Source: Candidatus Cloacimonadota bacterium
GTDB lineage: Bacteria; Cloacimonadota; Cloacimonadia; Cloacimonadales; TCS61
Direction: 5' to 3'
Length of the DNA stretch: 33,287 nt
Assembly (NCBI GenBank): GCA_018400535.1
Contig: JAGYMQ010000109.1
Location: 1-33,287 of the forward strand
The notes under the pieces were generated by a model. It did not search any database and was not told the origin of the DNA. It worked only from the letters and a program-made list of their open reading frames with translations. A program made the position numbers and the translations under genes. Positions 1 through 10,000 of this stretch are shown here, in pieces (position 1 is the stretch's first letter; every line of letters begins with the position of its first letter).

Positions 1-16
1 GTGACCCTGAAAAAGG

Positions 17-166
17 CTAACACCTTGCAGGATAAGTGTTTTTTGAGGAAATGTGGTAAAGATGGGTTAATAATTTTTTTGTGGGCTTTCGCACAATGGT
101 TAAGGCTATGTGCCGTTTGAATGGCATATAGCCTGTGTTATCGGTTGGATTTTGGAGATCCCTCAT
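17..166 (-). CDS. Possible 49-aa small ORF (doubtful)
   Basis: The minus strand has an ATG at 166 preceded by a purine-rich AAGGAAGGGAA, and stays open for 49 codons to a TAG at 17-19. It begins about 20 bases after the proposed attC end at 186, where a cassette ORF would be expected. The product is basic and resembles nothing I know. A strong hairpin (104-133) lies inside the frame, and a plus-strand frame (1-120) is also open, so coding is unproven. It may simply be non-coding cassette sequence. Confidence 0.25.
   Translation of the reverse strand: MRDLQNPTDNTGYMPFKRHIALTIVRKPTKKLLTHLYHISSKNTYPARC
104..133. repeat. Strong 11-bp inverted repeat (hairpin)
   Basis: GGCTATGTGCC at 104-114 pairs with GGCATATAGCC at 123-133: ten Watson-Crick pairs plus one G.T, with an 8-base loop. 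On the plus strand it is followed by TGTGTTATCGG, which resembles an attC R' end. No T-run follows on either strand, so a rho-independent terminator is unlikely. An attC-like fold or RNA hairpin in the cassette region is the more likely reading. Confidence 0.5.
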
Positions 167-184
167 TTCCCTTCCTTCTTATTT

Positions 185-272
185 ACTAACGACCAAGGTC
201 ACTTGCGCCGCCACAAAAGCCTGCCGCATCAGCGCCGCCGTTCTCGGCGTCAAATGAACCGCCTGGTTTACT
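185..272 (-). other. Candidate attC recombination site (cassette 1)
   Basis: On the minus strand this GC-rich block starts near GTAAACC and ends in TGGTCGTTAG, an R'-like core. The arms GGTTCATTTGACGCCG and CGGCGCAAGTGACC pair with unpaired extra bases on one side, the asymmetry typical of integron attC sites. The block is far richer in G+C than its AT-rich flanks and lies directly 3' of the RadC-like ORF, in the orientation expected of a cassette. The R'' box is imperfect, so it could be a decayed site. Confidence 0.5.
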
Positions 273-292
273 GAGATTCTTTTTTTTTAAAG

Positions 293-985
293 TTAAAATA
301 TTCGTGATAGATGTAAGGACAAGTTACCAAGTTTTGATTTTCCGTTTTGATTTCTAACGACCTCAAGAAATTCAGAAATGGGTAAAAATAAATCTGAGTA
401 TTTTGCAAAATACTGGTGATGTTTGCCACGCTCACAAACAAATTCCAGTAAATTTATACCGCCATTATTCAACTTTGATGCAAATTCGTTAGCGGATTTA
501 ATATCTTGCTGACTTGGTTTGCTACAATCAAAATGATTTGGATTACTATTCGGATGATTATGAAATATCATCACAGAGGCATACGCATCCTTTTTTGCAA
601 TATCGATCAAGTCATTCACAGAAAGGAACGGACTAACGCCAGATCTATCAAAACCCTTGTTCAGCCAACAAAGTGAAATCTTTTTATTTTTCTCAAAAGC
701 AATAATTATCCATTCATGTTTTTTATATTTCAGGAGACCTGCCGCAGTTGACGGGAAATTATATAAATTTTCGTCGAGACGATAGAATTTCCCATTTGCA
801 TGCATTCTTTTTTTAAAATTTTTGTCGACGTTATACTCATGCAGATCAAATGTGAAATATTGGCATATAGTTTTTCCCCTTCTTTTGAAGGATAATCTCT
901 CCATTTCACTTTCACTTAATGGCCGAAGATGTGTAAATACAAAGAGCAACACAACTAAGGCAGAACCTATCAGGAAATATTCCAA
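293..985 (-). CDS. Membrane-anchored RadC/JAB (MPN)-domain-like protein
   Basis: 230 aa. Residues 3-19 are a hydrophobic segment, probably a membrane anchor. The C-terminal half (about 88-200) resembles the RadC/JAB metal-binding fold: HNHP at 142-145, then S158 and D161 forming the family's HxHP...SxxD pattern. In RadC about eight residues separate the second His from the Ser; here the gap is about 14, an insertion. E91 or E98 is a candidate upstream acidic residue. RadC is usually a DNA-repair-associated or antirestriction-like protein without a membrane helix, so this is a divergent relative of unknown role. The start appears to be TTG at 985, preceded by AAGGA; an ATG start further in would lose the helix. 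Flanking attC-like sites suggest an integron cassette gene, so horizontal acquisition is likely. Confidence 0.65.
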   Translation of the reverse strand: MEYFLIGSALVVLLFVFTHLRPLSESEMERLSFKRRGKTICQYFTFDLHEYNVDKNFKKRMHANGKFYRLDENLYNFPSTAAGLLKYKKHEWIIIAFEKNKKISLCWLNKGFDRSGVSPFLSVNDLIDIAKKDAYASVMIFHNHPNSNPNHFDCSKPSQQDIKSANEFASKLNNGGINLLEFVCERGKHHQYFAKYSDLFLPISEFLEVVRNQNGKSKLGNLSLHLSRIF

Positions 986-1027
986 TTTGCTTAATCCTTT
1001 TTTGATGCTGGACTTCTGATATTTATT

Positions 1028-1088
1028 TCAGCGAACGTCTAAGCTAAACGGCTCGGCGCCAGCCGTGTCCGCTGCATGCGCTTGTTAC
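1028..1088 (-). other. Candidate attC recombination site (cassette 2)
   Basis: Read on the minus strand the block begins GTGTAACAAGC and ends GCTTAGACGTTCG. AAC/GTT and AAGC/GCTT form the outer paired boxes, and ACGGCT/AGCCGT make a perfect 6-bp inner stem around a GGCGCC core. The stop codon (TAA) of the upstream 248-aa ORF lies inside the first box, as is common in cassettes. The block is GC-rich against AT-rich flanks. The R boxes depart from RYYYAAC/GTTRRRY, so the site may be degenerate. Confidence 0.55.
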
Positions 1089-1831
1089 ACTGGTCTTACA
1101 ATGTTCCACGATACATCACCATGTCCAGACCAACCTTCACTATGAATAGTTCTTATTGGTGATAATCGTGAATTACTTTGTCTCGGTATTGATGAGCAAA
1201 ATTCAAGAGCGAAGTTGTCACCTGATTGCCAATCATGTTTTCCGTCTGTTATAAAGAGTTCGCAGTTTAATTTTTTCAAGACATTTAGCAACCATACTCC
1301 AGAAGCGTTGCCCCCACCTCCGCAACCGCCTCCATAACGAACATGAATGATGTGGGAAATTGTTGCTTTGTTAGGGACTAATTTATTACAGTAAAAGGTT
1401 TCGTTCTCAGCAAAAGCATAAACAACAGGATAAGAAATACTGCCCAATTTGTCGCTGTCTATTCTTATTTTTAAAAATACAGCTCTGTCAGTTGCTGTAC
1501 TTCCCTCTAAGAAATGAACTAACTCATTGTGAAGTGGAAGATTAAGTCGTGGTAATTCTTCAATATGATCAATATGAACAGTAGTTCTGCTGTCTGAATA
1601 AATTGTCCTATTGTCCATGAATGTTGAATTTCGCCCAGGAAAATAATCGGTGAATAAGAATAAGTCGGGTGGTTGTGGTTCTTGTTCTGATGCTGGATGT
1701 AGTTGAGAAAAATTTGGATGTAAATAAAGTAATGCACGAAAATCCTCTCCAGCTGATGGATACCAGGCAATTCTTGGCTCACCTTTAAAGTCATCTATGA
1801 GCTTCTTTAATTTTCCCCCTTTTATTCCCAT
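1085..1831 (-). CDS. Unrecognised cassette-type protein, 248 aa
   Basis: I do not recognise a family. The protein has no signal peptide or membrane segment. It has an aromatic- and Pro-rich N-terminal half (about 15-75), a glycine-rich loop GGGCGGGGN near residue 167, and a C-terminal region ending WNIVRPV. The stop lies inside the proposed attC at 1028-1088. The ATG at 1831 has no good Shine-Dalgarno, whereas an ATG at 1859 in another frame has AAGGAG just upstream. Removing one G from the five-G run at about 1816-1820 would join MTKKLLTDLNG... from that ATG to this frame, so the true N-terminus may be 9-10 residues longer. The product looks cytosolic; function unknown. Confidence 0.6.
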   Translation of the reverse strand: MGIKGGKLKKLIDDFKGEPRIAWYPSAGEDFRALLYLHPNFSQLHPASEQEPQPPDLFLFTDYFPGRNSTFMDNRTIYSDSRTTVHIDHIEELPRLNLPLHNELVHFLEGSTATDRAVFLKIRIDSDKLGSISYPVVYAFAENETFYCNKLVPNKATISHIIHVRYGGGCGGGGNASGVWLLNVLKKLNCELFITDGKHDWQSGDNFALEFCSSIPRQSNSRLSPIRTIHSEGWSGHGDVSWNIVRPV

Positions 1832-2051
1832 TTAGGTCTGTTAAAAGTTTTTTTGTCATAATACTTCTCCTTATTGTTTAATTATCCTTTTTATTACCGC
1901 CAACGACTATATAACCGTCATACATCATTTATTTCTTCCTTATATCCAGATTATTCTAAGGGACTGATAATTTTATCGCGTTTATTAATTGTTTTGATAA
2001 GATGCAGAAACATTCTTTGCTCTAATATGCTGATCAAGAAATTGCTCAATA
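1832..2051. other. Intergenic region with cassette-boundary-like site
   Basis: A 220-bp AT-rich gap between the 248-aa ORF and the MscS gene. On the minus strand CGTTGGCGG (plus 1897-1905) resembles an attC/attI crossover core, placing a possible cassette edge about 65 bases before the ORF. The ribosome-binding sequence AAGGAGAAG lies at 1864-1872. A weak promoter-like pair, TTGAGC at 2049-2044 and TATTAG at 2027-2022 with a 16-base spacer, could drive the cassettes. No integrase gene or clear terminator is visible. Confidence 0.35.
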
Positions 2052-2948
2052 TCATTTTTTTTCTTTGAAATGATCGTAAAAACGCGTCGTAGGATAAGCG
2101 AGTGCTATATCATCATTTTTAGCAAATTCTACAAGTACATCTTCCCAGATCGTTTGGGCAGAATTGCGCCGACGCCGCGGTTCACAAAGATAGCGCAATG
2201 TGAGTTTGACGCCATGATCCACGACTTCCAAATAAACGATCGGAGTTAATTTGGAATAGTAGATCATAAATTTTCGGGCTGATCTTTGCAATTCACTTTC
2301 CATTTGTTTGGAAATTTTGTCTGGCTGTTTATCGATTATGTTCTGTAATATTTCTTTTGCTTTTTGCCAGTTGCTTTCAAAAGTTATCATTACGGGAATT
2401 TCATTCCAGATATAATGGAAGCCTTGATCAAAATTTGCCAGTTCTTGAGTAAATACTTTTCCATTCGGGATAAAGATCAGCCGTCCTGTGCTTTGATCGG
2501 CAGCTACCCAATTTCCGATTTCCAAAAGCGTGAATTCAAAAGGTCGGATATCGATAACATCTCCCATCTTATTTCCGATCTGAATGCGATCTCCCACTTC
2601 AAAGGGACGACGCGAGATGATAAATACCCAGCCGGCAAAATTTGCGATGATATCTTTGAGTGCAATTGCAATACCAGCAGAAAGCAAGCCAAGATAGGTA
2701 GCCAAAGTTTGCACACCTTTGATCCAGATCCTGCCGACTACAAGCAAGATCAGAAAGAAAATGACGTATTTGACTACTTTGTGCCAGGTATATCGAGTTT
2801 TCAATTTCAATTTGCTGCGGTCGATCAATTTTTGGATTATTATCTTCAAAGCCCAAAGGATCACGATCAGTAGCAAAGATTGAAATATTCTAATCCACAA
2901 AGGGTCTTTGAGATATTCAGATAAGATTGACATCATTTTTTCCAGCAT
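2052..2948 (-). CDS. MscS-family mechanosensitive ion channel
   Basis: 298 aa, about the size of small-conductance MscS channels, which release solutes from the cytoplasm during hypo-osmotic shock. Three hydrophobic segments are visible at about 20-38, 57-76 and 78-112. The third is the Gly/Ala-rich pore helix and runs into RRPFEVGDRI, the conserved MscS step into the beta domain; FIPNGK (159-164) is another family hallmark. The C-terminal half is the soluble vestibule domain. The gene follows nadD by 15 bases and is the last of the long co-directional run. No strong ribosome-binding site precedes the Met at 2948; the Met codons at residues 5-6 are alternative starts. No obvious terminator follows. 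The ligand or gating specificity cannot be read from sequence. Confidence 0.9.
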   Translation of the reverse strand: MLEKMMSILSEYLKDPLWIRIFQSLLLIVILWALKIIIQKLIDRSKLKLKTRYTWHKVVKYVIFFLILLVVGRIWIKGVQTLATYLGLLSAGIAIALKDIIANFAGWVFIISRRPFEVGDRIQIGNKMGDVIDIRPFEFTLLEIGNWVAADQSTGRLIFIPNGKVFTQELANFDQGFHYIWNEIPVMITFESNWQKAKEILQNIIDKQPDKISKQMESELQRSARKFMIYYSKLTPIVYLEVVDHGVKLTLRYLCEPRRRRNSAQTIWEDVLVEFAKNDDIALAYPTTRFYDHFKEKK

Positions 2949-7012: not shown

Positions 7013-10000
7013 TTAATTTATTATCGCGATCTTTCCACGTTTTATCTCATCATCCATATTAATGATGTAGAAATACATTCCAGAAGAAACTCTCTGTCCC
7101 ACCTCATTCAGGCAATCCCATTTAAAATAATCCAAAGAATTGCGATAGGGGCCAATTTCCTGAGTATAGATCAATTCGGCATTCACATCAAATATTTTGA
7201 TATTTCCCTTTTTGTCTAAAGGGAAATTGATGAAATTCACCACATCATAAGCACTTTTCCTCAAATTCAAAGGATTTGGATAGACTATCAAATGCTGAAG
7301 ATTTTTAATGTCTGTCAAGCTGAAATGAATTTTGTTTCCAATATTAGAAATTTTGTTACCTGCCAGATCATAAATATTTTCTGCTTTCAAAAAATAAGGC
7401 TGATTTGTATATTTCATATTTTCTTGCAATTGGATATTTACATAAGAAGAATCTTCATTGAAATAGGAGATATTGATGATCTCATTTTGAGCATCGATAT
7501 TGGGAAAGATCAATTTATAATTGGTAGTGTCCTCGGCACTAATCTCGGTCAAAGGTTCAGAAAAATAGACACGAACAATATCGGAAACGGGAATATCAAC
7601 GTCGGTCATCTTCGGCGCAACAGTATCTTCCTGATAATCAAACTCGTAATATGTTGAAAGGGGAACTCCGGTAATTCCACTCAAACCAGAAATATAAATC
7701 GTGTATTGATCAAACTCACCAAAAGGATTGGCAAATTTCAGCAACACAATTTTATCCATTCCTAATAAATTGGCAGAGATGGGATTACCCATATCATTGT
7801 TCACAAAATAATGAGGAATTTCGGAAGCGGTTGAACTGATTTCGCGATCAAATTTCAGCCTTAGATCATATTGTGAAATCATTTTCACAGAGATCAAATT
7901 TGGTTTTGGAAGTGGGATCGCCGTCTTCCACGCTGTGGGAAGGCTTTCTGCTGGATCATAACTTTCTTTCACAGCCGTGATCTGATAGCTCACTGTATCG
8001 CCAGAAACAAGCTCGTGATCTTGATAAAAATGATCTGGGATCGTAGCTGCCAAAAAAGTCGAGTCATTTTGCTGTTTGTAAATATTAAAATAGTCATAAA
8101 TATCTGCCCGCCAGCGCATATGAACGGTTGTGGAATCGATAGGCATGAATTCTAAATAGACTGGTGAAGGTGGTCCGGTAAATAATTCACTTTGTTTGAT
8201 CAGGCAAGAAGAGATCTCATTATTTTTTCCCATATTTCCAATAATGTAGGCATCTTCAACTTCCGACTGGGGATTTACTGCCAGGATATTTTGATAGGTT
8301 TTTGCAACATCACCTTTCCAGATTGGCACAAATTCGTCATTTTGATAATCTACAATGTAAATATTGGGTGGAACTGAGATCACGATCTCGTCATCTTCAT
8401 CACCATCCAGATCTGTTGTGGCGATGGAATTTTTTTGCTCATGTTGCGAAAAGCTGATATAATCCAACATATCATAGCTGTTATCTTCGCCATTATTTTT
8501 GTAAAAATTAAAATAGGTAAAAGATTTATTAGGATCAATCGGATCATAGGAATAGCCACCGACGCAAAATTCTATCAGGCCATCACCTGTAAAATCTCCG
8601 ACAGCCAGCTGATACGCTTCACCGATCGGTAGATGATCTGTCCAGACCATTTCAAAAACGGATGCATTTTTTTCAAAAATTATCACGTCTCCATCTGTAT
8701 CTGCTGCTAAAATATCAGGATTTCCGTCATCGTCAAAATCACCACTTCTAACCTTATTCACAAACGTATTTTTCACGCTGGTCGGAGTTTCATTCAAGAT
8801 CGTATATTCCAGTTGAAATTCATCGCCATTACGCTGAAATAATTGCAAAGCTCTTTTTGAAACCTGATCTATTGTGACATTTCTGATCAGCGCCAGTTCA
8901 TCAAATCCATCATTATCATAATCAATGAAATTACCGCCATAAGCATCTTCAGCTGGAAATATTGGTGTGTTTGGATAATCACTATTCACCGTCTCATATA
9001 CGACTGGTTGATCAACCAAGATCCCCAACAATTCCATCCCTTCAGCATTGGTATTTCCCAGATCGTGAGGCCAGATCGATTCTGAAAAATGATGCGTGGT
9101 GACTATCTCGTTATTATGGACTTCGTATGCATTCAGAAAAAATTCTTCTTGAGAAGTATCCAGAGCAATAAATTCGTTTTTCCCGTTATTATTGAAATCA
9201 TAGGTTTTTTGGATGGCAGAAAGTTCACTTCCGAGAATATGCTGTTCATAAGAATGGATATCGATAGGCGTATAATCTGGTTGGAAATCGTAAGCTTCAT
9301 CGACAAAAGTTTCCAATCCTGCCAGATTGATCGCCCGTAAATTGATCGGTTGATTTCCAGCATAATAGACAGGAACTTGACATACGAGGATAGAATCAGC
9401 GATCGGACTAATTAGTTGGTAATTAGAAGAAGGTGGAATGTTAATTTCCAAAAAAACTTTTTCATCAAAAACGGCTTGAAAATAGTATTCAGGGATTTCC
9501 GCCGCATATCTTTTCATAATGACAGCATAATCTTCATTAAATTCAGGTGGAGATTGATCAATGTGGATTGTTCGGATCAGGTCATAACTTTCTGCATCAT
9601 CTGTTTCGATCGTGATCTTTATCTTATAACTTCCAGAGGAAAAATATTGATAAATCGGGAAATAAGCGATCGTATCATTTTGCACTTCATCATAATAAAA
9701 AGTATGAGCTGGGTCAACATCTTGCCAATCTGATAAAGTGGGAACAACAGCATCCGTCCATTTCACATTATAACGCCAAAAATCTGGTGCACAGACTGTG
9801 CCTGTTATAAAAACATCATCACAAATCGCTTGATTATCCTGAGGATAGGTTATGTCGATCTGCGGTGTATTGTTTGTGATCAGAAGTTCTTGAACATCCA
9901 GCAGTCCATACCCAAATATGTCATCCTTTCCTTCCTCGCCCAGATCAATGCAGGAAGATAAGAGCCGACTGCGCACTTGGTCCTGATTTAGATTTGGATC

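Follow-up and report, generated by a model that had tools for sequence, protein, structure and literature searches.

Integron cassettes are excised and inserted by a tyrosine recombinase that acts on folded single-stranded attC sites. These sites share the core GTTRRRY, with the cut falling between the first and the second base (PMC8876359), and the integrase IntI is distinguished by an extra domain of its own, located around patch III (Messier and Roy, cited in PMC9668308). Clusters of attC sites lacking an integron-integrase are termed CALIN (IntegronFinder 2.0, PMC9024848). Orphan arrays of this type are frequent, above all in MAGs, and mobilisation in trans remains possible for their cassettes (PMC9024848, PMC9668308).

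The window, i.e. the whole stretch of DNA analysed here, is the complete contig C109 (33,287 bp, GC 38%) of a host genome of 2.62 Mb in 146 contigs that is 95.7% complete. We conclude, with a probability of about 0.83, that the minus strand at approximately 67-1904 is an integrase-less integron-type cassette array (CALIN), composed of two complete cassettes and the start of a third behind mscS.

Anatomy of the array behind mscS

The features of the array and its edges, as we read them, are as follows.

2052-2948, minus strand: flanking chromosomal gene mscS, also present in relatives, where other genes come after it
1898-1904, minus strand: R'-like boundary GTTGGCG, the 5' edge of cassette 1 (from sequence)
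1085-1859, minus strand: cassette 1 gene, DUF7663 protein (Pfam PF24699, E 1e-52, or 2.5e-55 with the N-terminus read in)
1030-1090, minus strand: attC of cassette 1; R'' 1084-1090 GTGTAAC, including the TAA of the gene; R' 1030-1036 GTTCGCT; score 28.2
293-985, minus strand: cassette 2 gene, membrane-anchored RadC-like JAB protein of 230 aa with HNHP...PSQQD (Pfam RadC 22.5 bits, cut-off 22.1)
184-272, minus strand: attC of cassette 2; R'' 266-272 AGTAAAC; R' 184-190 GTTAGTA; score 23.3
91-143, minus strand: probable third attC-like site; R'' CGATAAC, R' ATTGTGC; score 20.1 with an ATT-type R' permitted
67-97, minus strand: truncated start of a third cassette, TTGTGCGAAAGCCCAC..., common only to C71:1342-1375 of the same genome
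1-70, no strand: end of a dispersed insertion-sequence-like repeat and assembly break; copies 93-96% identical at C14, C4 and C114

The genes behind mscS vary among relatives. In the window, the minus strand continues behind mscS with the DUF7663 gene, a GC-rich palindrome, the RadC/JAB-like gene, a second palindrome, a smaller third palindrome and the start of the truncated further unit. The preliminary description had reported this alternation of minus-strand ORFs with palindromes, each at the 3' end of a unit, and our analysis reproduces it, with ORFs at 293-985 and 1085-1831. Both main attC sites sit behind a minus-strand gene, and the distance from the R' core to the gene start is about 40-45 nt for each gene, as in cassettes.

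The DUF7663 ORF spans 1085-1831 on the minus strand, while its homologs place the true start at the ATG at 1859. The reading frame shifts near the AAAAGGGGGAAAA homopolymer run at 1811-1822; since the homologs and the Pfam profile continue across the frameshift, it reflects either decay of this copy or an assembly error. In the RadC cassette, the R'' at the 3' end (AGTAAAC) pairs with the R' at its own 5' end (GTTCGCT) at five of seven positions plus one wobble, against three pairs and two wobbles with its present neighbour. Better pairing between the two ends of one cassette would be expected had the cassette been captured as a circle; no such preference for its own end is seen in the DUF7663 cassette. 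The first 34 nt of the third unit have their sole other copy on C71, where the similarity begins at the R' core and lies 5' of an isochorismatase-like gene; the same contig also contains an attC (see below).

A boundary-like sequence had been noted at 1897-1905, and it survives in part: GTTGGCG does occur at 1898-1904 on the minus strand, as a bare R'-like sequence behind mscS, with neither hairpin nor attI recognised. Upstream of it, the scorer scan and a hairpin search gave no attC or hairpin att site. A double-hairpin att site at this boundary was ruled out, the hairpin being absent there. Behind the recombinase of a relative (L226), a GACGTTGGCG junction occupies the equivalent position.

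At the opposite edge, the terminal GGTAAAGATGGGTTA of the repeat at 1-70 is found again at the ends of C4, C6, C10, C14, C65, C100, C114 and C122. Because this repeat end is shared with so many other contig ends, C109 stops at an assembly break, and since the break falls at an insertion-sequence end, the cassette array may extend beyond position 1.

Both cassette genes are patchily distributed. The DUF7663 gene occurs in one of the 125 genomes of the phylum and is absent from the other 124; homologs 51-55% identical exist in MAGs labelled Acidobacteriota, Nitrosomonadales and Bacteroidales, where they share the N-terminus that the frameshift separates, and no attC was recognised beside these three distant homologs. 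The RadC-like protein has homologs in few of the 125 genomes, among them G078 (59%), G071 (49%) and G094. In G078, which belongs to another genus, the homolog begins about 33 nt past a clear attC (GTCTAACAAACTGCACACGG...CCGTGTCGCACTCAACCGTTATAT), and that attC stands behind another small gene, giving a two-gene array. The homolog in G071 has no flanking attC. Neither gene has homologs in the viral contigs and plasmids searched, and PADLOC returned no defence match.

Candidate attC sites and their background

Sites were ranked with a custom attC scorer that adds arm complementarity to positional weights over the 24 outermost nucleotides of either arm. It was trained on 20 attC entries, with two of the sites entered in both orientations; they came from plasmids with class 1 integrons and from arrays in related genomes, and none belonged to the window. 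Among non-overlapping matches on the minus strand of the window, 1030-1090 is at the top, 184-272 is second and 91-143 comes next; the ATT option for R' was permitted only once the last of these had been noticed. ATT is the usual core among attC of this phylum. The plus strand yields a single chance-like match (9023-9116) whose score, 24.2, lies between those of the two main minus-strand sites. In the 1.25 Mb scanned of the 2.62-Mb host genome, 1030-1090 ranks 2nd and 184-272 ranks 6th, and just seven matches reach at least 23, both main window sites included.

Dinucleotide shuffles of each 90-125-base region equal the observed score in 0-0.3% of cases with three background compositions, and none of 300 shuffles attains the score of 1030-1090. 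Arm complementarity alone gives p values of 0.006 for 184-272, 0.004 for 91-143 and 0.30, which is not significant, for 1030-1090. The GC content is 58% at 184-272 and 61% at 1030-1090, against 34-39% in the adjoining genes. The asymmetric GC-rich palindromes that had been proposed at 185-272 and 1028-1088 are thereby refined to 184-272 and 1030-1090, the two best minus-strand matches of the scorer. The suggestion that an ORF stop lies within the first attC box is likewise borne out, the TAA at 1085-1087 falling inside R''.

Both main sites contain the AAC and GTT boxes with an imperfect RRRY (GTTCGCT and GTTAGTA), and Watson-Crick pairing between R' and R'' in situ is confined to AAC/GTT. A strict covariance model, for which 16 attC arms and strict R''/R' pairing were used, calls neither site; we read the window attC as real, but for this reason as divergent. 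The same model detects class 1 sites yet fails on several of the long sites on which it was trained. Single-strand MFE folding reveals no unusual stability at the two main sites (z -1.0 and 0.0), and an Rfam search gave nothing near the gathering score. A short ORF across 91-143 offers an alternative reading of that stretch and is without database support. In a BLAST search of the sites against plasmids, a 19-nt match in about 1450 records proved to fall in unrelated sequence next to a cupin gene.

One could suppose instead that two ordinary horizontally acquired genes happen to be accompanied by chance GC-rich palindromes or transcription terminators, and that there are no cassettes at all. 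The silence of the covariance model on both sites and their unremarkable MFE agree with this, as does the existence of chance attC-like matches, a handful of which score at least 23 per 1.25 Mb. However, the two matches lie on the same strand less than 1 kb apart, each at a gene end, at positions that a reader had picked without any score. Moreover, no T-run follows the window hairpins, the same RadC gene stands behind an attC in another genus, and the host genome contains further attC. We consider an explanation without cassettes improbable. The cassette-array interpretation first offered in the preliminary description is instead supported by the two attC, the spacing between genes and sites, the stop codon within R'', the patchy genes and the homologous cassette behind an attC elsewhere.

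Recombinases and ATTA-core sites in the phylum

The preliminary description had placed the integrase outside the window, and indeed the 33-kb contig encodes no recombinase. In the 95.7% complete genome as a whole, a TIGR02249 search returned no integron integrase above the cut-off, two of its matches being XerC/XerD-like; the genome does contain 3' fragments of a recombinase that has no IntI-specific domain and is here called patch-less. The window array is an orphan, not an array beside its own integrase. The alternative that we see the edge of a complete integron, with its integrase gene past position 1 in sequence that failed to assemble, draws on the repeat at the contig end, the incomplete 146-contig assembly and the presence of IntI in relatives, yet it is about as improbable as an array-free locus: no IntI scores above the cut-off in the genome, and the integrase-proximal end of a minus-strand array should be the high-coordinate side, where mscS comes directly. 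Above the cut-off, true IntI occurs in seven of the 125 genomes of the phylum. Some IntI loci (L062, L064) sit in gene blocks unlike cassette arrays.

The recombinase fragments of the host genome are short, frameshifted 3' portions at C43:1-190 (L094), C61:1-175 (L095) and C6:16200-16410 (L096). They resemble the patch-less recombinase most, as exemplified by G076, mostly with 47-81% identity over short stretches. Lone fragments comprising the last 80 or so codons of the patch-less gene also occur in G084:C24, twice (L242), and in G117 (L249). These 3'-end fragments are scattered as if that 3' end, together with its hairpin site, were a repeated unit.

In an alignment with seven IntI, all eight patch-less proteins show a gap of about 40 residues at the IntI-specific domain around patch III. 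In a tree whose branches are long and whose forks are partly unresolved, the patch-less recombinase is separate from IntI. The proteins score 224-239 bits with the NCBIfam integron integrase model, below its cut-off of 265, and 224 with an archaeal XerA-type model (cut-off 220). Larger forms have an extra N-terminal region with a GRRW...WHIP motif. Behind several recombinase copies stand two co-oriented hairpins that terminate in GGGGATACACACATTAG, and a variable gene comes next:

L235 (G119:C141), L068 (G119:C249), L205-L211, L219 and L224-L229: patch-less recombinase, co-oriented double-hairpin site ...GGGGATACACACATTAG and variable genes, with attC in some of the contigs

In G119, an intact recombinase stands at the head of a contig of 9.8 kb on which four attC are co-oriented with it; three of these are of the ATT type (L235). 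A second, frameshifted copy heads an array with three GTT-type attC (L068). Over 114 kb of such loci, 14 attC matches are co-oriented and five opposite, some of these matches being training sites. Behind some copies, no attC is detectable within their short contigs. Related recombinases that share about 50% identity with the query and have a WVMPQ N-terminal motif occur as tandem pairs (L212-L214, L217, L220-L223); these pairs apparently represent another mobile element.

When one 127-nt attC was used as a DNA query, matches were obtained in 40 of the 125 genomes, often many per genome:

L235:4868-4994, L256, L257, L258, L236, L241 and L242, among others: VCR-like attC repeat of about 125 nt with the R' core ATTA

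ATTA replaces the canonical GTT in all 13 classifiable repeat copies among the loci examined. The repeat attC of the phylum departs from the canonical GTTRRRY core; the two main window sites do have GTT. The repeat found no match in plasmids and, as a 20-nt motif, none in viral contigs. An R' limited to GTT had at first concealed the ATT-type attC of the host, which were revealed after retraining on relatives. Applied to the scanned part of the host genome, the ATT-type model, for which seven attC from other genomes were used, picks out exactly four strong sites, compared with one at 26-28 in reversed sequence:

C14:19486-19611, minus strand: host attC, score 50.6
C32:5973-6041, minus strand: host attC, score 43.6
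C71:467-538, plus strand: host attC, score 36.3
C61:3848-3968, plus strand: host attC, score 27.1

On C61, the order is recombinase fragment, hairpin site, genes and attC.

Proposed mechanism and comparison with known systems

Judging from the anatomy, each window cassette would have been captured as a circle through site-specific recombination at a folded attC. The third cassette may later have been cut by an insertion sequence at the contig break, where the repeat end is observed. In the phylum, arrays follow a co-oriented patch-less tyrosine recombinase by way of the double-hairpin site, an order from which a functional connection might be presumed. The commonest attC of these arrays is the repeat of about 125 nt with the core ATTA. 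The window cassettes were most likely moved by the patch-less recombinase or, in trans, by the true IntI of a relative; since the two main attC of the window are of the GTT type, action in trans by a conventional IntI is as possible as action by the patch-less enzyme. Adjacency, co-orientation and the ACATTA common to the hairpin site and attC lead us to infer that the patch-less enzyme may be a cassette recombinase.

We tentatively suggest, at somewhat less than even odds, a phylum-wide integron-like system in which a domain-less recombinase lies upstream and co-oriented, capture takes place at a double-hairpin att and ATTA-core attC, and the window array is a scattered product. A limited literature search found no description of a co-oriented patch-less ATTA-core system. 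Its importance would lie in arrays whose recombinase is without the domain held necessary for integron recombination, and in a changed crossover base, owing to which attC models built on GTT may overlook such sites. If true, integron-like cassette capture would have arisen or survived in the absence of the domain that defines IntI, and the cassette content of such phyla would be undercounted.

Compared with the sedentary chromosomal integrons that carry repeat attC (VCR-type superintegrons), the relatives similarly possess many arrays with similar attC of about 125 nt (40 of 125 genomes), whereas their core is ACATTA instead of GTT, and the arrays are spread over many contigs, some headed by the patch-less recombinase. 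Like IntI (TIGR02249), the latter is a tyrosine recombinase adjoining attC arrays and has a C-terminal SPLD motif; unlike IntI, it has no extra domain, groups apart and scores 224-239 bits against 265. The window array itself is an ordinary orphan cassette cluster of an uncultured lineage, which may be Cloacimonadota-like to judge from gene content. It differs from CALIN as described in that its attC are divergent and escape the strict covariance model, and it resembles them in having two attC on one strand by the custom scorer, genes in between and no integrase.
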